Shown here: piece by piece, positions 7,552 through 62,834 of the stretch | How positions within the stretch are numbered: position 1 is the stretch's first letter | Layout of the letters: every line of letters starts with the position of its first letter | Assembly (NCBI RefSeq): GCF_014925405.1 | Contig: NZ_AQHJ01000035.1 | Span: 372,001-436,000, forward strand | Direction of reading: 5' to 3' | DNA length: 64,000 bases | Source of the DNA: Pseudoalteromonas ulvae UL12 | Lineage (GTDB): Bacteria; Pseudomonadota; Gammaproteobacteria; Enterobacterales; Alteromonadaceae | Translations under genes and position numbers: made by a program | The notes under the pieces: model-generated | What the model was told of the DNA's origin: nothing | What the model saw: only the letters and a program-made list of their open reading frames with translations | Database searches by the model: none

Positions 7552-8209
<658 letters not shown>

Positions 8210-24352: not shown

Positions 24353-25990
24353 TTATAATAAAATTAAATTATCGGCATTTGCGATATGTTCTTGTTTATG
24401 CGAAATAATGATCACCGTTTTATTAACTAGCAAGTTGTGCATTGCTTGTTCAATTACCTGTTGGTTTTCGATATCAAGAGCGCTCGTATATTCATCCAAA
24501 ATGACCACTTCTGGTTCATGTAAAATAGCGCGAGCAATTGCGATGCGTTGTTTTTGTCCACCTGAAAGTTGATTTCCTCTATCACAAATTTGAGTAAAAT
24601 ATCCGTCAGGAAGTTGCTCAATAAAATCATGAGCGTTGGCTTTTTTGCATGCACTGATAACTCGGTTCATTTGATCTGGTGTTGGTGTATTTGTGGCTTC
24701 AGGAATAAGGTTTTCTATTATAGATGATGAAAACATAATGGGTTCTTGTTCAACATAAGCAATGGTTTTTCGAAAGCATGCAATAGAGAGTTTGTTTAAG
24801 GAGTGATTTCCAATCATTATTTCCCCATTAGTCGGCAAATAATAACCTAAAAGCAGTTTAGCAAGAGTTGATTTACCGTTACCTGATGGGCCACTGATGA
24901 CGGTTGTTTGCCCTTGTTTTATTTGGATGTTAAGTTTTTCAAATATGTGTTTTTCTGGTTTATTTGGATAGTAGAAACTAACATCACGAAATCGAATATC
25001 CCCGATAAACCGTCGCTTAGATTGTGCTAAGGGCTCGACATCGTTATCGTTATCTAATAATTGAAATAAATAACGGGTGGCGCCTAGAGTGTGGACCCAC
25101 TCCGCCCAAAAACTTGCTAATGAATTAAGGCTAGTAAAGGCCATACCAAGATAAAGTACATAAGATGCAAGCTCCCCAATAGTCAGTGTATTTTGTTTAA
25201 TGAGGTGACTGCCGAGAATGAGCATTATGATTAAACTACTAAAAATAAGAAAATTAAAAAAAGCCTGAAAAACAGCGATTGCCGATATAGTACGTTTTGC
25301 ACATGTAATATAAGACTGGGTTGTATTGTGATATCTATTTTGACTTGAGCCAAACCAACTGTATAACTTGATTAGCGTATGACCATTTAAATTATCAAAA
25401 GCAATCTTATTTGTTTTTGCTAAGGCATCTTGTTCACGCTCCGAAAGCGGCTCTATTTTTTTACTTAATAGTTTTGTAGCAAAAATAAATGTAGGAATGC
25501 AAAACAGTAAAACTAAAGAGAGTGTTGTTGATAGCGTAAACATCATGATGATGCAGCCAATAGTTATAATTGTTGCGCGTATTGCTTGAGCTGCACTTGT
25601 TGTTAGTGCGTCTTTGAGCATTTGTGTATCAGCGTTTATGCGGCTTGCAAGCTCTGCTATGTTTATAGCATCAAAATAACTAGCGGTTTTATGGAGTAAA
25701 GTTTTATGGATAGTGAGCCTAAAATGAGAGACAACTTTAATCCCTAGCCGTTCAAATAAATAAAATCTGACTGCACTCAATAGGGAAAATACTATGATAG
25801 CGAGTAGGGTGTACAAATGAAAAGATGCGAATAATGTAGCAGGGGCGAGTCCATCTACATAATAATTAACTAACTTTGGGAGAGCCAATTGCGCAACTGC
25901 AGTAACCAACATAATAGACAAAGCAAAAAAAACTTCTTTTTTATAAGGCGCGATCAGTTTTAAACGCTGGATATGATCAGATTGATTCAT
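24353..25990 (-). CDS. ABC exporter (fused permease-ATPase) of the RiPP-like cluster
   Basis: 545 residues. A six-helix type I exporter domain spans about 15-300 and a nucleotide-binding domain about 325-545. Walker A GPSGNGKST is at 367-375, the signature RGNQLSGGQKQR near 470-480, Walker B EVVILDEYTSALD after it and the H-switch ISHKQEH. There is no C39 peptidase domain at the N-terminus, unlike many bacteriocin exporters. Its start overlaps the stop of the thioredoxin-like gene by 1 bp. As last gene of the cluster it most likely exports the mature peptide. Confidence 0.92.
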   Translation of the reverse strand: MNQSDHIQRLKLIAPYKKEVFFALSIMLVTAVAQLALPKLVNYYVDGLAPATLFASFHLYTLLAIIVFSLLSAVRFYLFERLGIKVVSHFRLTIHKTLLHKTASYFDAINIAELASRINADTQMLKDALTTSAAQAIRATIITIGCIIMMFTLSTTLSLVLLFCIPTFIFATKLLSKKIEPLSEREQDALAKTNKIAFDNLNGHTLIKLYSWFGSSQNRYHNTTQSYITCAKRTISAIAVFQAFFNFLIFSSLIIMLILGSHLIKQNTLTIGELASYVLYLGMAFTSLNSLASFWAEWVHTLGATRYLFQLLDNDNDVEPLAQSKRRFIGDIRFRDVSFYYPNKPEKHIFEKLNIQIKQGQTTVISGPSGNGKSTLAKLLLGYYLPTNGEIMIGNHSLNKLSIACFRKTIAYVEQEPIMFSSSIIENLIPEATNTPTPDQMNRVISACKKANAHDFIEQLPDGYFTQICDRGNQLSGGQKQRIAIARAILHEPEVVILDEYTSALDIENQQVIEQAMHNLLVNKTVIIISHKQEHIANADNLILL

Positions 25991-26529
25991 TAACTTTCAT
26001 CCATAATTTGCTGTTGGAAAAAACGCCAGTTATCATCATCAATACTTCCTTGTCCTTCAACCTCATTGAGCTCATTAATAAATAAATAAGCAGGTGATAA
26101 TTCATGAGGGTTAATCATTTTATAATCAGAATAACTTAGTTGCCAAATCGCTTTAATTAAGGGAGAGCCATTAAAAAACGACTCTATGTTTTTCATTTGA
26201 TCATGTAAAATGATTTGCAGGTTAACCCCGTTTGCTTGTGTCTTAATGTGTAATTGTTCAAGAATGGAAAGTTTACTTTTGCATTTTGGACAATTGGTCG
26301 CCAAAAAAACTAGAGCGCTAGGTGTCGTTATTTCAGTTGTTATTTTTCCTCGCGAATAAAGGTTGGTGGCGATTAAAGAAGGAAAGGTATCTATATCAAA
26401 ATTTGGTGCACTAAGTTGTGCTTTTGCTTTGACTAGCTTGTTTAATATGATGAGATTAAGTGAAATACTCACAAGTACGAAAAAACTTAATAATGCAATA
26501 ATAAATTGCCATTCATTAGTTGGTTGCAT
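25990..26529 (-). CDS. Membrane-anchored thioredoxin-fold protein (MauD/TlpA-like)
   Basis: 179 residues. An N-terminal membrane helix (about 8-30) is followed by a domain with the redox motif C80-P-K-C83 after a strand (ALVFLATNC), which is the thioredoxin-fold active-site position in MauD/TlpA-like proteins. The C-terminal half is divergent and short. It lies 2 bp after the start of the MauE-like gene and overlaps the ABC gene by 1 bp. MauE and MauD act together in disulfide formation during methylamine dehydrogenase maturation. Here the likely target is the two-Cys precursor peptide encoded upstream (inference). Confidence 0.75.
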   Translation of the reverse strand: MQPTNEWQFIIALLSFFVLVSISLNLIILNKLVKAKAQLSAPNFDIDTFPSLIATNLYSRGKITTEITTPSALVFLATNCPKCKSKLSILEQLHIKTQANGVNLQIILHDQMKNIESFFNGSPLIKAIWQLSYSDYKMINPHELSPAYLFINELNEVEGQGSIDDDNWRFFQQQIMDES

Positions 26530-26531
26530 AT

Positions 26532-27032
26532 TTATTCCGGCCTTATAAAAGCGCTTATAGACTTTAAATTAATCATTAGTACGACTAAACACAGCGCCAG
26601 TAATATTATGATAATTATTGATAAATAAAACATTGGCAATGGAGGGGAAATACATAAGAAAACACTTGCGATTAATAACATCATATTTCGTAGTAAATCT
26701 TCCCAACCTAATGCACTACTTTGTCCAAAACAGTTACACTGGATAGTTTTTTTAGTGAGGACAGCGTAAAGAGGGATACAGAAAAATATAAACATCATAA
26801 AACAAATAATTTGGTAGATGAGTAAGTCATTAGGACCAAAAATAAAGATAGGCAACAGAGATAGCTCGAATGAAATAACCGATATAGCAACAAATTTACT
26901 GATAGATGTAGGTATTTTAAAAGTCATTTCGAGCGTTGACTGAAACTCATCGAATACTTTATATTTTTTTATACCAGCGTAGATAAATGTAAACGCTATC
27001 ACCATTGCAAAAAAACAACTGATTAATGGCAT
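26532..27032 (-). CDS. MauE/DoxX-like membrane protein
   Basis: 166 residues, four or five hydrophobic helices. The diagnostic feature is C99-N-C101-F-G followed by LGWEDLLRNMMLL, as in MauE and DoxX-like proteins (usually CxCFG then LGW..l.RN). A Tyr-Ala-Gly-Ile-Lys segment (about 18-22) ends the first helix, also typical. MauE is a membrane partner needed for disulfide formation in methylamine dehydrogenase. No mau structural genes are present, so the pair has been recruited to another substrate. It abuts the SDH protease gene. Confidence 0.8.
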   Translation of the reverse strand: MPLISCFFAMVIAFTFIYAGIKKYKVFDEFQSTLEMTFKIPTSISKFVAISVISFELSLLPIFIFGPNDLLIYQIICFMMFIFFCIPLYAVLTKKTIQCNCFGQSSALGWEDLLRNMMLLIASVFLCISPPLPMFYLSIIIIILLALCLVVLMINLKSISAFIRPE

Positions 27033-27923
27033 TTATAGACAACCCGTATTAACTGACCAACTAGGATTGAGGCCTTTCATGTCTTTCCAACGGCTACTCA
27101 CCTTAGTTGAAGAAACAATCGTGCTATTACACCAAGCTTGCTCAAGGTCTGAACGATTCCCACCACCTAGGTTTTGGTTGAAATATTCAACAAGGGGCCA
27201 AACAGTTTTGTTTAGCTGGTGGTTATTTTCACAAGGCAAACCGAGTTCAAACAATTGCTTTCCTGTAACAGCATAATCATGGCTGTGAAAACTAAACATT
27301 AGCGTGTCAATAATGCGATTTTGAGTTATCTCGCAATGTTGACCAGTATGAGTTAATAACTCTTTTGCAATCTCTTTAACTTCAAGTACAGAGCGATAAA
27401 ATGAAGTTAAAGTAGGAGGGAATATGTGATCGCAAAGCATAGCTAACATATTACTTTTATCGGAAAGTTCAGTGTTAAACCAATCCTGAGACATATTATT
27501 AAATAATTTGATATCGGCACTCGATAAAGCGGCGCTCTGATCTCCTTGATTGCCATGTAAGTGAGGATCGATGGCAGTAAAAATAGACAAAGGCGAATAA
27601 TAAATTGTTTTAGCGCCAAGTGCCAGTAAGGTTCCTGATGACTGACAATGATAGGGGGCGATGATATTGAGGTTGTGACAAAATTCATGGAGCAACAATG
27701 CGATCCTTCGAGCTGCATTGATATCGCCTCCTCGAGTGTAAAGTAAAACATTTAACGTATCAGCAGATTTTAAGCGATTTAGGTGGCTGTATAATTCAGG
27801 TAAAAGATCCATTTCAAGGTGTGATGCAGCTATAATTAACGTGGCTTGTTCAGGAGATTGCTGGTTTAATGTTTCTATAATGGGATTGGCAATTTGTTGT
27901 AATTTTTGGTTATAATCATGCAT
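27033..27923 (-). CDS. SDH/ClpP-fold serine protease of the RiPP-like cluster
   Basis: 296 residues. It matches the serine dehydrogenase proteinase (SDH_sah) branch of the ClpP/crotonase fold: LYTRGGDINAARRIA (about 61-75, oxyanion-hole region), probable nucleophile S96 in QSSGTLLALGA, and D119 in FTAIDPHL, where family members have an invariant IDP. No signal peptide or membrane helix is seen, so it should be cytosolic. It overlaps the ATP-grasp gene by 8 bp and abuts mauE, placing it inside the biosynthetic operon. Leader-peptide removal is the obvious hypothesis, because the exporter lacks a peptidase domain. Confidence 0.8.
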   Translation of the reverse strand: MHDYNQKLQQIANPIIETLNQQSPEQATLIIAASHLEMDLLPELYSHLNRLKSADTLNVLLYTRGGDINAARRIALLLHEFCHNLNIIAPYHCQSSGTLLALGAKTIYYSPLSIFTAIDPHLHGNQGDQSAALSSADIKLFNNMSQDWFNTELSDKSNMLAMLCDHIFPPTLTSFYRSVLEVKEIAKELLTHTGQHCEITQNRIIDTLMFSFHSHDYAVTGKQLFELGLPCENNHQLNKTVWPLVEYFNQNLGGGNRSDLEQAWCNSTIVSSTKVSSRWKDMKGLNPSWSVNTGCL

Positions 27924-28902
27924 GTTGTCTACACGCCTTTTCTAAAGTCTCTACTAACGTATGGGTAATTTCAAGTTCTGGTACGTTTTCTTCGATAAAC
28001 ATAAATTGACCATTAGGGTTATTTTCTAAGAAAACATAGTCACTTTCCGGTGTGACAATAAAATCTAAAGCTGAGTAATTTAATCCATAGCTGTTCACAA
28101 ATGCTAAGCAAGCTAGTGCTACCTTTTCAGGTAATTCGTAAGAAGACATTGGGATTTGAATATTTAGATTTCTGCAGTCTATTTGTGTCTCGGGGTGTAA
28201 TTGAGAGTCGAGTTTTGCGGTGAAGATTTTACCTGCGATTATGGTCACCCTTAATTCATAGGCTTTTTCTATATAAGCTTGAAATTGATTGGGTAGCAAT
28301 CGAAGTGAATCAGTATCTTCCAGCATCTGTTCGTCAATTAGTGTTGTTGCAACACCTTGGCTTGGTAAATTACCTCCATTAATTACAGGATCAGACATGA
28401 CTTTGTAGATGACTTTCTTATGTTTTAAATAGAAAGCTCTGATTTTTTCCGGATCATTGCTAATTAATGTATCGGGTATATTAAATCCAAGCTTTGAGGC
28501 TCTTTTTAATTGTTCTCCCTTCCACATGGATGCGCGCAAGTCCTTTGGGTGACTAATCCAAAAGCAATCGAGAGAATATAAAGCGCTAAATAATGCATGC
28601 TCCGTCTCTTGGTTTGCAAACTGTAAAGTTGCTCTTTCCATGTCTATTTGTTTATATGAAAAATCAGCTGGTTTACGAAGCCAAATAGCACCAATATTAG
28701 AGAGAGATACACGCTGTTTTGTGTCTGTGTTTTCTAATGTTGAAGAGAAATTTGTGTTACACGAAGTTTGATTTAATAAATACTGCTGTGGAAATCGGTC
28801 AAGATTCAAAACAAAGTAATTGGTATGATTCTTATTCAGGATGTCGAGAACCTTATCAACGTGATAATCCTGAGTATTACTAATGATTAAAATGGTTTTC
28901 AT
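27916..28902 (-). CDS. MvdC/MvdD-like ATP-grasp peptide ligase
   Basis: 328 residues from the ATG at 28902, favoured by GGAG six nt upstream. Features of the graspetide ligase branch are the N-terminal TILIISNTQDYHVD pre-ATP-grasp segment, IWLRKP near residue 80, SHPKDLRASMWKGEQL near 120, IYKVM (ATP-binding Lys) near 170, IEKAYELRVTI near 210 and the C-terminal metal-binding ENNPNGQF near 290. Such enzymes activate Asp/Glu side chains of a precursor peptide with ATP and form ester or amide crosslinks. The precursor candidate is 189 bp upstream on the same strand. Confidence 0.88.
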   Translation of the reverse strand: MKTILIISNTQDYHVDKVLDILNKNHTNYFVLNLDRFPQQYLLNQTSCNTNFSSTLENTDTKQRVSLSNIGAIWLRKPADFSYKQIDMERATLQFANQETEHALFSALYSLDCFWISHPKDLRASMWKGEQLKRASKLGFNIPDTLISNDPEKIRAFYLKHKKVIYKVMSDPVINGGNLPSQGVATTLIDEQMLEDTDSLRLLPNQFQAYIEKAYELRVTIIAGKIFTAKLDSQLHPETQIDCRNLNIQIPMSSYELPEKVALACLAFVNSYGLNYSALDFIVTPESDYVFLENNPNGQFMFIEENVPELEITHTLVETLEKACRQHA

Positions 28903-29048
28903 CGAACGCTCCAATACACTTTCTTAGGCTACGTCAGTGAATTTTCATTTCGGTACCAGTTGAAAGTATCTGTTATTATTATATTTATTTACACTGTAAG
29001 TGGGTGCGCTTTGATTGATAGCAATTGTATTGATATAAAAAATGAAAA

Positions 29049-29075
29049 GCGACAACCTCAAATTAAGATTGTCGC
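29049..29075 (-). terminator. Hairpin between the precursor gene and the ATP-grasp gene
   Basis: Minus strand: arms GCGACAA/TTGTCGC (29069-29075 with 29049-29055, 7 bp, 13-nt loop) are followed by TTTTCATTTTTT. It is a weak terminator 17 bp after the precursor stop. Partial read-through would give more precursor than enzyme transcript, as is common for RiPP operons. Confidence 0.6.
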
Positions 29076-29091
29076 AAGTGATATTGAGTGA

Positions 29092-29256
29092 TTAGCACCA
29101 AATACCATTATCGCGACCTAACCAGCGATGATCGCCTCTAGCCCAAGGTCCTGAACAACCCGCAGTAGCTGCTTTATTGTCAGCTTGCCATTTTTTTTCT
29201 TGTTTCACTTGGTTTTTGTTTGCCGCTGCAAACGCGAATGGTTTTGTATTTTTCAT
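29092..29256 (-). CDS. Candidate RiPP precursor peptide, 54 aa
   Basis: Start at 29256 is chosen because AGGA lies 8 nt upstream; an in-frame extension of 14 codons has no ribosome-binding site. The N-terminal KPFAFAAAN (residues 5-13) resembles the PFFARF-type leader element that ATP-grasp ligases recognise in microviridin-group precursors. The C-terminal part (from about residue 26) is Gly/Trp/Arg-rich, with Cys34 and the final Cys54, acceptors Thr31 and Ser35 and donors Asp42 and Asp49. It carries none of the known TxKYPSD-type or marinostatin cores. It is the first gene before the ATP-grasp, SDH protease, MauE, thioredoxin-like and ABC genes. Chemistry of the product is inference. Confidence 0.72.
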   Translation of the reverse strand: MKNTKPFAFAAANKNQVKQEKKWQADNKAATAGCSGPWARGDHRWLGRDNGIWC

Positions 29257-55394: not shown

Positions 55395-58300
55395 TTAAAA
55401 CTGGTACCCTAAATTTAACGATAAGGTATTGGTGTTATTCTCATTAATAAAGTACCGAGAAATTTGCAATCCAGTTTGCCATGATGGATTGATTTGGTAG
55501 TTAAGTCCAAGACCTAAAAATGGGTCGACTCCATCGAATGATTCTTTTATTGTCGTTTGAGCATACTGACTATCTGTATCACTATGCCAAACATAAGCAC
55601 CTAACGTATAACTGAGTAGCCAATCTTGATTCAATTGGGCCAGATAGGAACCTGAAAGGGTGATGCCATGTGTGAATAATGGCATATTTCTACTTTGTGT
55701 CGGAAAATAGGCATCAGGATTGAGCTGAGCACTCAGAATTCGAGTATCACTTTCACCCAAATCAACATAACCAAGCGATAAAGCCCAGCTGTTATCAAAG
55801 TGATAACTTAACTCAATGCCTCTTTGGGTTCCCGTATCATCGACCGTAATGAAGGTATCCTCATCGGGATGTTGATTGATAGATGATTCAACCTTTGATT
55901 GACCAACACTTATTTCTAACAACCAAGGAGTGTTATCCGCTGAGATTTTAGACGAAAAAATAGCCGCACTAAATATCAGGAGCGCAATAGGTGCTTTTGC
56001 CTTTTGCTTAATTAACATGACTGTCGCTAGTAGTAGTATCAATAGTGAGTTCAAGCTCCCTCCTGAATGATTTTTTATGATTACGTCTTGATATGCCTCG
56101 ACAGAAATAGTGACATAACTGGTTGATGTGAGCTGGCCATCTGAAATTTCATAACTCAAGGTGTCGATCCCCTCAAAGCCGATTTTAGGGGTATAAGTGA
56201 TACTTTGATCTGAATTAATGACAGCCGTGCCTTGCTCAGCATTAATTGATGTTATGAACAGATCTTGGTTTTCAGGATCTTCATCATTGGCTAACACACT
56301 GATGGTGATCACGGTTCTATCATTCGTCTGAGCTGTATCGGGATGTGCTATCGGAGCAAAGTTGGCATTCACAATAACTGATACCGTGGTGGAGCTTGTT
56401 CCTCCTTGGCCATCGGAGATACTGTATTGAATCGTCGCAGTGCCATAAAAGTGTGCGGCAGTTTGATAATAAAGTTGGTTATCAACAATGGAAACCGCAC
56501 CAAAATCAACACTGGCAGCACTAATCATTAATGAGTCGTCATTGTCATCATAATCATTTGTAAGCACATCAATGGTGATATCACTATTCCAATTGATCTC
56601 AATGTGATCACTGATAGCTTTAGGCTGAGTATTTTGGCTTTGATAAACAGCGACGCCACTTGGGTCGACGATAGTACCATTTTTAATACCATCCGCATCG
56701 TTTTTACCGCCATCTTGTATGGTGAGCTGAACACACCATGCGCCTTCTTGTAAACCTGCTCGCCATTGAGGATCACCAGTTGTAGGGCAGTAACCGGGCT
56801 CTCCGGCAGCAGAATGAATTGCGTTATGCTCATCAATTAAAAATTCAGTCCATTGATTGTTAATTAATTTACGATAAACCGCATTGGCAGGTATAGCACT
56901 TACTTGAGGTAAAACAATTCGATATGACTCACCTGGCGTAGGCAGACCTTCAAGAATAAAATCAAATATTCCACCTAAATTATCTGCTTCGGTATCAGTT
57001 GGAAGTTCACTCGCTAATAATTCAATGCCACCGGTTTGATTATTGGCAATGGTTGAGCCTTTTCGCATACAAATACCCGGCTCACTTTCAACAAGAAATG
57101 AATTTGATTGCATGGCTTGTTCTTGCATCACATTACATTCACTGATTGCATCGAGATAATCAGGGATACCATCTTGGTCTGAATCTTTAAAGCCTTCTAG
57201 GTGATCAGGGATTAAATCACCATCACTGTCGAGATCAGTGAGCGATGTTAACTCTGTGGTGACTTCTAGGTAAATTGTTTTTTTACTAGATAATGCTGGC
57301 TCTGCGTTATCCGTGGCAACGAATTCGACAGTATAAATTCCCGGTAATAACCCCGTTGGATTAAAAGTAAAGGTTTCGTCATCGCTGGAGATATTAATGA
57401 TATTTTCTGAATCTGTATGCCATGCTAAGGTTACGACATCATATTCATTAGGATCGTTAACCTGACTGGTTATTGATACTGTTTCATTTGAATTGGTGAG
57501 CACGTTTCGTTGTTGTCCCGCTTGTATGACTTGATAATCAATAACTGGCGGTAAGTTGTGTTCGACAATGGTGATGGTTTGTTGTGCGTTATCGCTGATA
57601 TTTTGACCTTCATTTAGCGTGATTATAATCGTTTCATTCGCTTCACTGATCCCATCATCAAATGTGTTAACACTTAGGTAGGTTTTTGTGCCTTCATTAA
57701 ACGTCACTTCTCCATCGATTAATGCATGATCAGCTCCTGTCGCTGTGCCACTTACGGCATAGGAAACAGTGAAAGGGTAACTTGCTGGCTGTCCGTTTAA
57801 GTGAAAAGTGACCTGATGAGTTGACCCTTCCGTTATTGCAATATCTCGGTCAATTGAAATTAGCGGATTGACAGTGACTGTCTGTTTAACAATTGTCTGC
57901 CTATTGTCAGCATCTACAGCTTGCCAAAAAACTGAGTGTGCGCCTGGGCGAAAATGTGTCCTAGGATTTATTAACGAGACAGCAAGAGGGTTACCTGCTT
58001 GATCTGTTGCAGTGGCGACACCTAAATCCACTTTTGTCATTAGGCCTGTCGCATTAACAATAAGATCGTCAGGTACATTTAAGTGAGGGTGCAGATCCAT
58101 TTGACTGTCTTTAATGTGCAGTGTCACGCTTGTTGCCGATAATTTGTCTTCAACATCTGTAATACTGTACATCAGAGTAACAGTATTAGAGGTACCCGCT
58201 AATGCTTGATAGAGTATCTTGTTATTTTCAATGGATACATTTCCAATCTCTGCAGACACACTCGCGAGTCTAAGTTCATCCTCGTCCACATCAATATCAT

Positions 58301-61300
58301 TCGCCAATACGTCTAATTCGTAACGTTCAGAAGCGTCAAATGGTAACGTTATATTATCAGCGACAGCGATTGGCGCGTCATTCTCAGGGTTAATCGTTAT
58401 GGTAATTAAAGAGCTGTCAGATGTTAACTCCTGATCGAAGGCATGGTATGTGATGGTATCTACACCATGTACATCTTTATTCGGTGTATAAAGCCACTGA
58501 TCACCCGACTGGGAGAGTGTTCCTTTTGTTGGTTGTTTAACAACAACAAATGAAAGCGCATCTTGATCGATATCGTGCCCTTTAGGATGAAAATACACGC
58601 CTTGATCTTCTTTTGTATTGAATGATAAATCTTCAGATGTAGGTTTATCGTTGACGTTCTTGACAGTAATTGAAAATAACGGCAACTGGGCTGTTTGGGT
58701 TTTATCTGTTACAGATAATTCAATATCGTATGTAGTGCCAACATCGTCATTGCTTGGCGTACCTGAGAGGCGACCCGTTTGTGTGTCAAAACTAGCCCAG
58801 CTTGGTTTATTGGTAATTGAAAATGTAAGCGTATCGCTAAGATCTTCATCGTGAGCGGTCGGGGTAAACTGGTACTGCATATCTTCATTCACTGACGTTT
58901 GCGGAGTACCTGAAATAGTCGGCGCATCGTTGGTATTAACCACTGTTAGCGAAAAAGGAGGCAAAGAAGTTTGTGCAAGTAAATCCTTCACGCTGATAAC
59001 AATGTTAGTGGTTTCGACAATGGTGATGGTTTGTTGTGCGTTATCGCTGATATTTTGACCTTCATTTAGCGTGATTATAATCGTTTCATTCGCTTCACTG
59101 ATCCCATCATCAAATGTGTTAACACTTAGGTAGGTTTTTGTGCCTTCATTAAACGTCACTTCTCCATCGATTAATGCATGATCAGCTCCTGTCGCTGTGC
59201 CACTTACGGCATAGGAAACAGTGAAAGGGTAACTTGCTGGCTGTCCGTTTAAGTGAAAAGTGACCTGATGAGTTGACCCTTCCGTTATTGCAATATCTCG
59301 GTCAATTGAAATTAGCGGATTGACAGTGACTGTCTGTTTAACAATTGTCTGCCTATTGTCAGCATCTACAGCTTGCCAAAAAACTGAGTGTGCGCCTGGG
59401 CGAAAATGTGTCCTAGGATTTATTAACGAGACAGCAAGAGGGTTACCTGCTTGATCTGTTGCAGTGGCGACACCTAAATCCACTTTTGTCATTAGGCCTG
59501 TCGCATTAACAATAAGATCGTCAGGTACATTTAAGTGAGGGTGCAGATCCATTTGACTGTCTTTAATGTGCAGTGTCACGCTTGTTGCCGATAATTTGTC
59601 TTCAACATCTGTAATACTGTACATCAGAGTAACAGTATTAGAGGTACCCGCTAATGCTTGATAGAGTATCTTGTTATTTTCAATGGATACATTTCCAATC
59701 TCTGCAGACACACTCGCGAGTCTAAGTTCATCCTCGTCCACATCAATATCATTCGCCAATACGTCTAATTCGTAACGTTCAGAAGCGTCAAATGGTAACG
59801 TTATATTATCAGCGACAGCGATTGGCGCGTCATTCTCAGGGTTAATCGTTATGGTAATTAAAGAGCTGTCAGATGTTAACTCCTGATCGAAGGCATGGTA
59901 TGTGATGGTATCTACACCATGTACATCTTTATTCGGTGTATAAAGCCACTGATCACCCGACTGGGAGAGTGTTCCTTTTGTTGGTTGTTTAACAACAACA
60001 AATGAAAGCGCATCTTGATCGATATCGTGCCCTTTAGGATGAAAATACACGCCTTGATCTTCTTTTGTATTGAATGATAAATCTTCAGATGTAGGTTTAT
60101 CGTTGACGTTCTTGACAGTAATTGAAAATAACGGCAACTGGGCTGTTTGGGTTTTATCTGTTACAGATAATTCAATATCGTATGTAGTGCCAACATCGTC
60201 ATTGCTTGGCGTACCTGAGAGGCGACCCGTTTGTGTGTCAAAACTAGCCCAGCTTGGTTTATTGGTAATTGAAAATGTAAGCGTATCGCTAAGATCTTCA
60301 TCGTGAGCGGTCGGGGTAAACTGGTACTGCATATCTTCATTCACTGACGTTTGCGGAGTACCTGAAATAGTCGGCGCATCGTTGGTATTAACCACTGTTA
60401 GCGAAAAAGGAGGCAAAGAAGTTTGTGCAAGTAAATCCTTCACGCTGATAACAATGTTAGTGGTTGTGCCAACATCGTCATTGCTTGGCGTACCTGAGAG
60501 GCGACCCGTTTGTGTGTCAAAACTAGCCCAGCTTGGTTTATTGGTAATTGAAAATGTAAGCGTATCGCTAAGATCTTCATCGTGAGCGGTCGGGGTAAAC
60601 TGGTACTGCATATCTTCATTCACTGACGTTTGCGGAGTACCTGAAATAGTCGGCGCATCGTTGGTATTAACCACTGTTAGCGAAAAAGGAGGCAAAGAAG
60701 TTTGTGCAAGTAAATCCTTCACGCTGATAACAATGTTAGTGGTTGTGCCAACATCGTCATTGCTTGGCGTACCTGAGAGGCGACCCGTTTGTGTGTCAAA
60801 ACTAGCCCAGCTTGGTTTATTGGTAATTGAAAATGTAAGCGTATCGCTAAGATCTTCATCGTGAGCGGTCGGGGTAAATTGGTACTGTGTATCTTCATTC
60901 ATTGACGTTTGCGGAGTACCTGAAATAGTCGGCGCATCGTTGGTATTGCTTACTTCAATGAAAAAAGTCGGTAATGAGACCGATGAATTTGAATCGCTCA
61001 CCGATATTACAACATTGTTATAAGTACCAACATGCTGGTTCAATGGCGTGCCATATAACTCACCTGTAGACGGATTAAAATTAGCCCAGTTCGGTTTGTT
61101 TTGAATGGAGAATGTGAGTGAGTCACCTACATCTTCATCATAAGCAGATGGTGTAAACTGGTAATAACTGTCTTCGTTTATTTGCGTAACTGGTTGACCA
61201 AAAATGCTCGGTGAGTCATTGGTATTAATTACGGTTAGTCTGAATGTAGGGAGAGAACTCACAAGCTGCCCGTCAGACACTGAAATAACAATATTATCTG

Positions 61301-62834
61301 TACTACCAACATGACTATTTGTCGGAATACCACTTAATTGACCATTGACTGAGTTAAATGAAACCCAAGCGGGTTTATTGGTAATACTAAAGGTTAGGTT
61401 GTCACCAGTATCTACATCATTCGCATTGGGTGTGAATGTGTAGCTACTGTCTTCTAAGACACTAGTAAGTGGTGTGCCTGAAATACTGGGCGCGTCATTG
61501 ACATTTTGTACGCTAATAGTGAATGCACCAGTACTCGCAGAACCGCCGTGATTATCAGTGACTGTGATGTTGATATTTGGGTAGTTGCCGACATCAGAGT
61601 TAGTCGGTGTGCCACTGAGTAGTCCGGCCGCGGAGAAAGTCGCCCAGCTCGGTTTATTTGTAATAGAAAATGTGTGTGTGTCTCCAGTGTCAGCGTCAGT
61701 TACTGTCGTTTGAAAAGCATAAGCGGCATCTTGGGCAATTGTTGTTGCGGGAGAATTAGTAATAACCGGCAATTGATTTGGCTGAGTCGTGGTAAATTGT
61801 CTTGTAACTGCCCACAACTCGCCTTCGGCATTGATTGCCTGCAAGTTCCAATAATATACTTGGTTGCTTTGCAACTCACTCCCAGATGGAAGTGTAAAAC
61901 TAGTTAATCCAGCATCGATAGCGTCATTTTGGTAAACAATGTTATTTAAGTTTGAATCAGTTGCGACAATTAACTTGTACGTCGCGACGTTGTCTGATGC
62001 ACTCCATGTAAACGTAGGCAGGACTATTTGGTCGGTTGCACTGGCGCTTGGCGAAGTAAGTGCAAAGGCGCCTGGCGGAGGCGAACTTACATATAAAATG
62101 CCATTATATGCAATACCCGGGTTTGGGCCCGAAACATCATAATTACTGCCATTCGGGGTGTATTTAATATTTTGTAATCGATCTAAAATCGGTGAGTTAT
62201 GAGATGTTTGGACAAACTCAGTTCCACCAGTAATGCCTATTGTTGCTTCTGTTGCCTTACTGCGTTCATTTGGTAAATCTACATAGTTGAAATAGATTTC
62301 GTTACTGCCACTGACCAATACAACTTGGATGGTACCTAAGCCTAATGTTTGGCTATAAAAACCATAATTTGAATATTGAATCGCTAAAATATCTGTGCCA
62401 AATGAGTTACTCGGGTCGTTGTGGGGGACCAATAATGATGTGACATGTTGTTTAGCATCTTTAGAGACGAGATCATCCCAAAAAACATAAAGGTTATAAC
62501 TATCTTGCCCGCTGCCCGTTAGCGTTAATTCAGAGAGGGGTTGATTGGTATAATAGGAACTAACAGGCGCAGCATCCGCTCCTGGATCACCAATATTTCC
62601 TTTTCGAAGCGCAATGACACCATTGGAGGTAATCGAAAAATGGTCAACTGTTTTACCAAACAGTTCAAAATTAAAACCAATAGGGGTTCGAATGCTCTCT
62701 GCCACGTCATCGATAGTAGAGCCGCTGGATGTGACTTGCGAATGTAATTGCGCTTGTAAATAATATGTTTCAGAGTTGGCTTTGCTAAAACCAAATATAC
62801 ACATTAGGTATACAATATAGAGAAGTTTATTCAC
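55395..62834 (-). CDS. Giant repeat surface protein with cadherin/He_PIG, Calx-beta and C-terminal beta-barrel parts
   Basis: 2479 residues. A signal peptide (1-20) is followed by a beta-rich head, a fibronectin-like unit (about 255-350) and about six He_PIG/cadherin-like repeats of about 93 residues (NDAPTISGTP, ED..YQFTP, DTLTFSI, GRLSGTPSN..VGT). A 484-residue block (791-1274) repeats exactly at 1275-1758; each copy holds He_PIG, VCBS/Ig-like, HYR-like and Calx-beta segments. A calcium-type DSDGDLIPDHLEG stretch lies near 1870, then VCBS-like units. G2258-G2259-S starts a GlyGly-CTERM-like tail, followed at M2273 by a second signal-peptide-like segment (to A2299) and an eight-strand-type barrel ending LGYQF. 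Likely an adhesin. Confidence 0.85.
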   Translation of the reverse strand: MNKLLYIVYLMCIFGFSKANSETYYLQAQLHSQVTSSGSTIDDVAESIRTPIGFNFELFGKTVDHFSITSNGVIALRKGNIGDPGADAAPVSSYYTNQPLSELTLTGSGQDSYNLYVFWDDLVSKDAKQHVTSLLVPHNDPSNSFGTDILAIQYSNYGFYSQTLGLGTIQVVLVSGSNEIYFNYVDLPNERSKATEATIGITGGTEFVQTSHNSPILDRLQNIKYTPNGSNYDVSGPNPGIAYNGILYVSSPPPGAFALTSPSASATDQIVLPTFTWSASDNVATYKLIVATDSNLNNIVYQNDAIDAGLTSFTLPSGSELQSNQVYYWNLQAINAEGELWAVTRQFTTTQPNQLPVITNSPATTIAQDAAYAFQTTVTDADTGDTHTFSITNKPSWATFSAAGLLSGTPTNSDVGNYPNINITVTDNHGGSASTGAFTISVQNVNDAPSISGTPLTSVLEDSSYTFTPNANDVDTGDNLTFSITNKPAWVSFNSVNGQLSGIPTNSHVGSTDNIVISVSDGQLVSSLPTFRLTVINTNDSPSIFGQPVTQINEDSYYQFTPSAYDEDVGDSLTFSIQNKPNWANFNPSTGELYGTPLNQHVGTYNNVVISVSDSNSSVSLPTFFIEVSNTNDAPTISGTPQTSMNEDTQYQFTPTAHDEDLSDTLTFSITNKPSWASFDTQTGRLSGTPSNDDVGTTTNIVISVKDLLAQTSLPPFSLTVVNTNDAPTISGTPQTSVNEDMQYQFTPTAHDEDLSDTLTFSITNKPSWASFDTQTGRLSGTPSNDDVGTTTNIVISVKDLLAQTSLPPFSLTVVNTNDAPTISGTPQTSVNEDMQYQFTPTAHDEDLSDTLTFSITNKPSWASFDTQTGRLSGTPSNDDVGTTYDIELSVTDKTQTAQLPLFSITVKNVNDKPTSEDLSFNTKEDQGVYFHPKGHDIDQDALSFVVVKQPTKGTLSQSGDQWLYTPNKDVHGVDTITYHAFDQELTSDSSLITITINPENDAPIAVADNITLPFDASERYELDVLANDIDVDEDELRLASVSAEIGNVSIENNKILYQALAGTSNTVTLMYSITDVEDKLSATSVTLHIKDSQMDLHPHLNVPDDLIVNATGLMTKVDLGVATATDQAGNPLAVSLINPRTHFRPGAHSVFWQAVDADNRQTIVKQTVTVNPLISIDRDIAITEGSTHQVTFHLNGQPASYPFTVSYAVSGTATGADHALIDGEVTFNEGTKTYLSVNTFDDGISEANETIIITLNEGQNISDNAQQTITIVETTNIVISVKDLLAQTSLPPFSLTVVNTNDAPTISGTPQTSVNEDMQYQFTPTAHDEDLSDTLTFSITNKPSWASFDTQTGRLSGTPSNDDVGTTYDIELSVTDKTQTAQLPLFSITVKNVNDKPTSEDLSFNTKEDQGVYFHPKGHDIDQDALSFVVVKQPTKGTLSQSGDQWLYTPNKDVHGVDTITYHAFDQELTSDSSLITITINPENDAPIAVADNITLPFDASERYELDVLANDIDVDEDELRLASVSAEIGNVSIENNKILYQALAGTSNTVTLMYSITDVEDKLSATSVTLHIKDSQMDLHPHLNVPDDLIVNATGLMTKVDLGVATATDQAGNPLAVSLINPRTHFRPGAHSVFWQAVDADNRQTIVKQTVTVNPLISIDRDIAITEGSTHQVTFHLNGQPASYPFTVSYAVSGTATGADHALIDGEVTFNEGTKTYLSVNTFDDGISEANETIIITLNEGQNISDNAQQTITIVEHNLPPVIDYQVIQAGQQRNVLTNSNETVSITSQVNDPNEYDVVTLAWHTDSENIINISSDDETFTFNPTGLLPGIYTVEFVATDNAEPALSSKKTIYLEVTTELTSLTDLDSDGDLIPDHLEGFKDSDQDGIPDYLDAISECNVMQEQAMQSNSFLVESEPGICMRKGSTIANNQTGGIELLASELPTDTEADNLGGIFDFILEGLPTPGESYRIVLPQVSAIPANAVYRKLINNQWTEFLIDEHNAIHSAAGEPGYCPTTGDPQWRAGLQEGAWCVQLTIQDGGKNDADGIKNGTIVDPSGVAVYQSQNTQPKAISDHIEINWNSDITIDVLTNDYDDNDDSLMISAASVDFGAVSIVDNQLYYQTAAHFYGTATIQYSISDGQGGTSSTTVSVIVNANFAPIAHPDTAQTNDRTVITISVLANDEDPENQDLFITSINAEQGTAVINSDQSITYTPKIGFEGIDTLSYEISDGQLTSTSYVTISVEAYQDVIIKNHSGGSLNSLLILLLATVMLIKQKAKAPIALLIFSAAIFSSKISADNTPWLLEISVGQSKVESSINQHPDEDTFITVDDTGTQRGIELSYHFDNSWALSLGYVDLGESDTRILSAQLNPDAYFPTQSRNMPLFTHGITLSGSYLAQLNQDWLLSYTLGAYVWHSDTDSQYAQTTIKESFDGVDPFLGLGLNYQINPSWQTGLQISRYFINENNTNTLSLNLGYQF
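57561..60464. repeat. Perfect 1452-bp tandem duplication inside the giant gene
   Basis: Copy 1 is 57561-59012 and copy 2 is 59013-60464, head to tail with a 1452-bp period (484 codons, frame kept). Sampled segments across both copies are identical. The junction on the protein level joins the Calx-beta ending TIVE to TTNIVISVKD. The match ends within two bases of these borders on both sides. Confidence 0.93.
60187..61023. repeat. Tandem 279-bp repeats encoding 93-residue He_PIG units
   Basis: Units at 60187-60465 and 60466-60744 are nearly identical for most of their length. A third at 60745-61023 is nearly identical over its first 200 bases and then diverges. 279 bp equals 93 codons, so each unit adds exactly one domain. 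Part of this array is also included in the 1452-bp duplication. Confidence 0.85.

Follow-up and report, generated by a model that had tools for sequence, protein, structure and literature searches.

A candidate family of bicyclic graspetides encoded together with a MauE/thioredoxin pair and an SDH-type protease in Pseudoalteromonas ulvae UL12

In Pseudoalteromonas ulvae UL12, which has a genome of 4.74 Mb, we analysed a stretch of 64,000 nucleotides (contig NZ_AQHJ01000035.1, positions 372,001 to 436,000; hereafter the window) and found on its minus strand a cluster of six genes that probably directs the synthesis of a new family of graspetides, the members of which would carry one Ser/Thr-Asp ester and one Cys-Cys disulfide in a core from which an SDH-type protease would remove the leader, making them bicyclic graspetides. 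The original prediction for this DNA had described a gene for a peptide of 54 amino acids with two cysteines, followed by five tightly packed genes encoding an ATP-grasp ligase, an SDH-type serine protease, a MauE-like protein, a thioredoxin-like protein with a CPKC motif and an ATP-binding cassette (ABC) exporter. This layout was borne out, including the exact spacing of the five enzyme and transporter genes (an 8-bp overlap, 0 bp, 2 bp and a 1-bp overlap), and the family calls MvdD pre-ATP-grasp, SDH_protease, MauE, ABC_membrane and ABC_tran all scored above their Pfam cut-offs; the thioredoxin call stood as far as the CPKC motif is concerned and not with respect to its Pfam score, which remains under the cut-off. 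Our confidence is high for the conserved gene set and precursor core, moderate for the ester and disulfide chemistry of the predicted product and lower both for the putative role of the SDH-type protein as leader protease, which is an economical reading, and for oxidation on the cytosolic side of the membrane.

The precursor gene (29092..29256) encodes a leader with a FAF motif and the core CSGPWARGDHRWLGRDNGIWC. The leader of 33 amino acids (29158..29256) has Ala-Gly at its end, where cleavage is presumed to occur, and the predicted core of 21 amino acids (29095..29157) contains Cys1, Ser2, Asp16 and Cys21, of which Ser2 and Asp16 would be joined by an ester and Cys1 and Cys21 by a disulfide. 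An iterated profile search yielded 102 open reading frames (ORFs) in 51 of 60 loci, the window included; one of these (8813-8908 in L016, expectation value (E) 0.008; loci are referred to by L numbers) was judged to be a spurious ORF and was removed before counting, leaving 101, of which 100 differ from one another. The core C-[ST]-x(n)-[D/E]-x-G-x-x-C(A) is common to all 101, with Gly-Cys-[Ser/Thr] at its start and a C-terminal Cys or Cys-Ala without exception, while the ending D-x-G-x-x-C(A) is found in 100 and has Glu instead of Asp in the remaining one. Exactly two core cysteines are present in 98 precursors, Ala-Gly precedes the first core Cys in 100, and the leader (FAF..LA) is conserved together with the core and the gene set. 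Ser/Thr-2 is the sole Ser, Thr or Lys in 20 cores and the acid of D-x-G the sole Asp or Glu in five, no core belonging to both groups, and this points to one ester between Ser/Thr-2 and Asp. Since these two residues lie 10 to 27 residues apart, the loop held by the two bridges would differ in length among members. The earlier proposal of side-chain crosslinks next to a disulfide fits the conserved core residues, with the correction that a single ester is what the family as a whole supports.

A profile restricted to the leader, made from the leaders of the same precursors and ending before x-Ala-Gly, gave 106 matches at E 0.001, with the core present in 104, and 109 matches at E 0.1, with the core present in 106; few leader-bearing ORFs with a different core would therefore have been missed in these loci. 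The two matches without core at E 0.001 both lie in L032 and resemble pieces of a split reading frame, and the third one, at E 0.1, is the L134 variant described below. Between the precursors of the window and of P. ostreae, 13 synonymous and nine non-synonymous codon differences were counted over 53 codons, which, like the homologous ORFs in 51 loci, speaks against a chance reading frame. The window precursor has no match in Pfam or NCBIfam up to E 0.1, and neither have seven of eight related precursors scanned, the eighth (L041) showing one weak match per library, under the cut-off. An alignment search of 5.8 billion proteins returned 443 relatives, and the names seen among the 120 listed read hypothetical or uncharacterised protein. 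With its position next to the ligase gene, its conserved leader and a core holding Ser/Thr/Lys as well as Asp/Glu, the peptide qualifies as a graspetide precursor.

The ligase (27916..28902) scores 49.5 bits with the MvdD pre-ATP-grasp domain of Pfam (cut-off 27) and, among the NCBIfam models, 216.9 bits with GRASP_SAV_5884 (TIGR04187), 208 with MvdD, 186.7 with MvdC, 115.5 with the grasp-with-spasm model and 24.7 with the RimK family, all of these NCBIfam scores being lower than the curated cut-offs. The cut-offs for the microviridin ligases MvdD and MvdC are 475 and 425 bits, and the enzyme reaches neither of them. Solved relatives found at E 0.001 are CdnC, 5ig9 and 5ig8 (MdnC and MdnB, respectively), AMdnB, 9bou and 7drm, the nearest being CdnC, MdnC and MdnB. 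In a tree of 71 rows, the 53 family ligases lie on one side of a branch with support 97/88 and adjoin a group with the microviridin ligases; the program warned of long branches, L058 included, and RimK proteins could not be aligned as an outgroup. The RimK-like proteins of L071, L075, L078 and L082 gave no hit with the family profile and do not figure in the tree, and the ligases of L004-L007 fall outside the family clade. That the ligase should group with peptide ligases had been set beforehand as a test, and both the scores (186.7-216.9 bits for the peptide-ligase models against 24.7 for RimK) and the tree, which lacks that outgroup, agree with it. The enzyme was hence classed as graspetide-type, in a clade beside the known graspetide ligases though below the subfamily cut-offs. 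In the same tree, the Pyxidicoccus ligase is placed among those of Caulobacteraceae, and those of Pseudoduganella and Massilia BJB1822 with Kangiella, Bowmanella and Rheinheimera, placements that suggest horizontal transfer.

To delineate the gene set, loci were retrieved from one genome per species (84,980 species). A first contig scan with a single SDH protein confirmed no relative; the SDH alignment A1 then gave 52 loci, in which ligase, MauE, thioredoxin, exporter and precursor were counted with profiles grown from the window proteins. The linkage of peptide and enzymes in related genomes, the other test fixed in advance, was upheld, with a ligase in 48 of the 52 loci and a homologous precursor likewise in 48; MauE and the thioredoxin were each found in 47, the ABC exporter in 45 and all six genes in 40, and the six-gene set is spread over several bacterial phyla. 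The commonest order is precursor(s), ligase, SDH, MauE, thioredoxin, exporter. The exporter lies on the strand opposite to SDH in L040, L042, L051, L054 and L056, and in L051 the same applies to ligase, MauE and thioredoxin. Three loci without precursor (L034, L056 and L057) have one elsewhere in the genome, bringing the number of genomes with a precursor to 51 of 52. MauE and thioredoxin are absent from five loci, namely L041, where the contig stops inside SDH, and L016, L017, L019 and L031, the first two of which also lack a ligase at the SDH locus; the genomes of these last four carry ligase, precursor, MauE and thioredoxin, the genes looked for, together at a second place. Nine precursors each occur in L020 and L023, and we observed at L020:4907-6925 (Massilia sp. 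BJB1822) and L023:4909-6925 (Pseudoduganella violacea) nine differing cores ahead of one ligase. A precursor search in 398 evenly drawn Pseudomonadota genomes gave a single match, the host's own, and the family is therefore sporadic. A ligase search in 60 relatives gave eight matches; among the 35 genomes of the same genus the family ligase was present only in G035, its nearest neighbour being the ligase of Pseudoalteromonas caenipelagi.

The membrane protein MauE (26532..27032), which carries a CxCFG motif, scores 80.2 bits with PF07291 (cut-off 27). Its partner, a membrane-anchored thioredoxin-like protein with the CPKC motif (25990..26529), reaches 18.2 bits with AhpC-TSA (cut-off 26) and gives no match to the MauD model TIGR02661 up to E 0.1, while a fused homologue in L059 passes the AhpC-TSA cut-off with 31.4 bits. 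Over the 52 loci, all 47 MauE frames have CxCFG, and each of the 47 thioredoxin frames has one CxxC or more. The two proteins form a single ORF in L025 and L059, in which the last MauE helix aligns with the thioredoxin anchor, and a model of the L059 fusion (predicted local distance difference test score (pLDDT) 91.5) has as its best fold matches soluble thioredoxin-like domains such as those of ResA, TlpA and CcmG.

The charges around the anchor indicate on which side of the membrane this pair might act. In 44 of the 47 thioredoxins (left out were the two fusions and a protein in which no helix was called), 3 Lys/Arg and 43 Asp/Glu precede the helix and 117 Lys/Arg and 38 Asp/Glu follow it, the side after the helix being the more positive one in 42 of the 44 compared to 1 of 28 DsbE/CcmG controls from relatives. 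These controls were matches to TIGR00385, 12 of 29 being below its cut-off and one of the 29 dropped, and DsbE/CcmG-type proteins are periplasmic. In 33 of 48 MauE proteins (L003 included, 15 left out), Lys/Arg number 123 in the first long loop and 109 in the second, where CxCFG is situated, compared to 17 and 20 in the short loops; 88 acids are also found in the CxC loop. The reversed anchor charge was unexpected; read with the loop charges by the positive-inside rule, it would place both the thioredoxin and the CxC loop on the cytosolic side, and the pair, probably oriented in this way as judged from sequence, may form the disulfide ahead of export. A search of 289 genomes from the class to which the genome of L040 belongs provided eight MauD-model proteins (L171-L176, L179 and L180; six over the cut-off, two of the ten best loci having been dropped), with 0 Lys/Arg and 6 Asp/Glu before the anchor and 16 and 8, respectively, after it. 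We noted that these anchors too are acidic before and basic after the helix, opposite to DsbE/CcmG. A tentative proposal, less likely than not, is that the MauE/MauD-type pair is an inverted, cytosol-facing membrane thiol oxidase, which despite the reducing cytoplasm would introduce the disulfide there while the ester-linked peptide still carries its leader and has yet to be exported, and that the wider MauE/MauD group, including that of methylamine dehydrogenase maturation, possibly acts on the cytosolic side.

The SDH-type protein (27033..27923), the proposed leader protease with a ClpP/SppA fold, scores 43.9 bits with PF01972 (cut-off 31.3) and falls short of the equivalog NF047768 (55.8 bits against a cut-off of 250). 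Ser95, from its family putatively the catalytic residue, is found in the context C-x-S-x-x-T, the three named residues of which are invariant in the 40 rows of A1. An AlphaFold2 model (pLDDT 88.4) has SppA, the 1510-N protease and ClpP among its nearest folds, the matches being remote, with template modelling scores to the query of 0.25-0.45 among the 50 rows listed, and a sequence search of the PDB with the SDH profile gave nothing at E 0.001. In most of the 52 loci SDH immediately follows the ligase. Its tail was considered as a fused precursor on account of a precursor-like C-terminal Cys and was rejected, as within A1 only the closest relative, P0001, has it. The exporter (24353..25990) combines an ABC_membrane domain (132.1 bits, cut-off 28) with an ABC_tran domain (107.4 bits, cut-off 25), and Pfam scans of the exporters of the window and of L014 revealed no C39 peptidase domain.

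Taken as a pathway, the ligase would recognise the leader and join Ser/Thr-2 to the Asp of D-x-G by an omega-ester (-18 Da), whereupon MauE and the thioredoxin would oxidatively link Cys1 and the C-terminal Cys in a disulfide (-2 Da), probably at the cytosolic face, with electrons passing from the CxxC of the thioredoxin to the CxC of MauE and from there presumably to quinone. The soluble SDH protease would then cut off the leader, probably after Ala-Gly, and the peptidase-free ABC exporter would export a product with Cys as its N-terminus and, in most members, also as its C-terminus. For the window core, the calculated monoisotopic masses are 2441.10 Da in linear form, 2423.09 Da with the ester and 2421.08 Da with both ester and disulfide.

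Several points weigh against this pathway. The presence of SDH at 52 of 52 loci is circular as a sign of conservation because the loci were fetched via SDH, two Chloroflexota loci (L058 and L134, see below) depart from the family pattern, and charge rules are imperfect predictors of topology, the MauE loops supporting the cytosolic side weakly. Moreover, the precursors of L016, L017, L019 and L031 retain both cysteines despite the lack of MauE and thioredoxin in cis, which speaks for a graspetide with one ester whose disulfide is made after export by the general Dsb system, MauE and the thioredoxin serving to keep the core thiols reduced or to repair wrong disulfides during ligation; a cytosol-facing thioredoxin would suit such a reduction equally to an oxidation. 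We nevertheless deem this rather unlikely, since the genomes concerned do carry MauE and thioredoxin at a second place, a membrane partner of its own would be of little use to a reductase in the cytosol and the MauE-thioredoxin fusions suggest an exchange of electrons with the membrane.

SDH, whose fold matches are remote and whose activity and cleavage site are predicted, could instead be a self-protection protein, either a protease-like target or a decoy, with the leader being removed by another enzyme. In a recent survey, microviridins and plesiocin are inhibitors of serine proteases and some clustered proteins are proposed to confer self-resistance (PMC13097080). Such a role is unlikely in our opinion, given that SDH directly follows the ligase in most loci, that its putative catalytic serine is invariant and that neither of the exporters scanned brings a C39 peptidase of its own. 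Other bonds in the core are possible as well, extra acids being present in 96 and extra Ser/Thr in 76 of the 101 cores, so that the ligase might join different residues, by a thioester with Cys1 or by amides or esters with the variable acids, and the product would not be a nested ester/disulfide bicycle. This we hold to be improbable: only the Ser/Thr at position 2 and the acid of D-x-G occur in all 101 cores, and 85 of them contain no Lys. The bicyclic graspetide with SDH as candidate leader protease remains the reading that we favour.

Both Chloroflexota variants bear on the role of the cysteines. In L058 (Ktedonobacteraceae), ligase, SDH, MauE and thioredoxin are kept and a recognised precursor is missing; upstream of the ligase lies an ORF of 73 amino acids (L058:4911-5132) with six Cys, three of them in CPEGCRC, which was missed by the leader profile and has an identical protein as its sole database match. 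By eye, this ORF has some likeness to the family leader and a Cys spacing reminiscent of knottins. L134 (155-553) combines a FAF-type leader with a core that contains eight Cys and lacks the motif; a ligase fragment and SDH lie next to it, and neither MauE nor thioredoxin was detected at the profile threshold. Additional cysteines in the vicinity of these enzymes would fit a disulfide role, with the provisos that there are two cases and that L134 is devoid of the redox pair. Further Chloroflexota SDH matches (L135-L139) were rejected as representatives of this cluster, as no ligase match was found at E 0.001.

Between precursor and ligase, directly past the precursor stop codon, a hairpin of 12 pairs with a T-rich tail (29075-29049 on the minus strand, i.e. 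29049..29075) could act as a partial terminator. Hairpin-type sites are not in excess in the region (2 compared to 3.2 in shuffles); hairpins of -8 to -18.6 kcal/mol were found 3' of the precursor in the eight loci folded (the window and seven chosen relatives, without shuffle control). Elsewhere in the window, inspection by eye revealed a 2479-amino-acid ORF with long, near-identical internal repeats (55395-62834) and a short ORF resembling a transposase fragment (7634-8059).

If the proposed chemistry is correct, these clusters are widespread and encode peptides with a single loop, differing in length and sequence between members, that is braced by an enzyme-made ester together with a disulfide. 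Such a natural scaffold could lend itself to engineering, and the clusters provide candidate functions for the SDH-type protease and the MauE/thioredoxin pair; the predicted cytosolic orientation moreover makes the side on which MauE/MauD proteins act testable. The literature searched yielded no account of such a set of genes, key subscription surveys and supplements being outside that search, and no paper searched contains 'graspetide' together with 'MauE'.

Microviridins and other known graspetides (MdnB/MdnC, CdnC; TIGR04184, TIGR04185, TIGR04187) resemble the window system in nearly full-length ligase homology, a leader-core precursor and candidate Ser/Thr and Asp residues in the core, but differ in that the window ligase stays below the curated cut-offs in a separate clade, that the window family has two conserved Cys, MauE/thioredoxin and SDH, and that its exporter lacks a C39 domain. 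The core C-[ST]-x(n)-D-x-G-x-x-C is not of the microviridin type. Proteases occur in many graspetide clusters according to surveys (PMC8939145; PMC13097080). Of these, Carter 2026 (PMC13097080) covers 21,584 predicted graspetides and reports a serine proteinase in over half of group 9, its main text, as far as available, containing no mention of MauE, thioredoxin or disulfide; the available main text of Makarova 2022 (PMC8939145), in which group 8, 9 and 11 motifs occur in one precursor cluster with a common leader, likewise makes no mention of MauE, thioredoxin, SDH, ClpP or disulfide. Group 9 or another of the surveyed groups may correspond to the window family. NosP sets a precedent for a dedicated microviridin protease, and the accessible part of a review on leader proteases of ribosomally synthesised and post-translationally modified peptides (RiPPs) does not mention ClpP, Clp or SDH. 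Candidates of decRiPPter in Streptomyces (PMC7794033, available text) share mauE, and once also mauD, with a Cys-containing RiPP precursor as the proposed substrate, but their precursors have at least eight Cys and SDH goes unmentioned there; ATP-grasp candidates are termed unlike those with known products, and the text does not plainly state whether they lie in the same clusters as mauE. Sublancin-type glycocin clusters with BdbA/BdbB (PMC6405829) likewise possess a dedicated thiol-disulfide oxidoreductase pair, possibly forming disulfides, but produce an S-glycosylated peptide with a transporter/peptidase exporter. The stryphnines, sponge knottins (PMC13418204), combine a side-chain Ser-Glu ester with a knottin, but are sponge peptides, from a sponge transcriptome without a grasp enzyme. 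Finally, MauE/MauD of methylamine dehydrogenase maturation are set apart by the MauD model, to which the window thioredoxin has no match, and are akin to the window pair in that the window MauE belongs to the MauE family and that MauD-model proteins share the charge pattern of the thioredoxin anchor.

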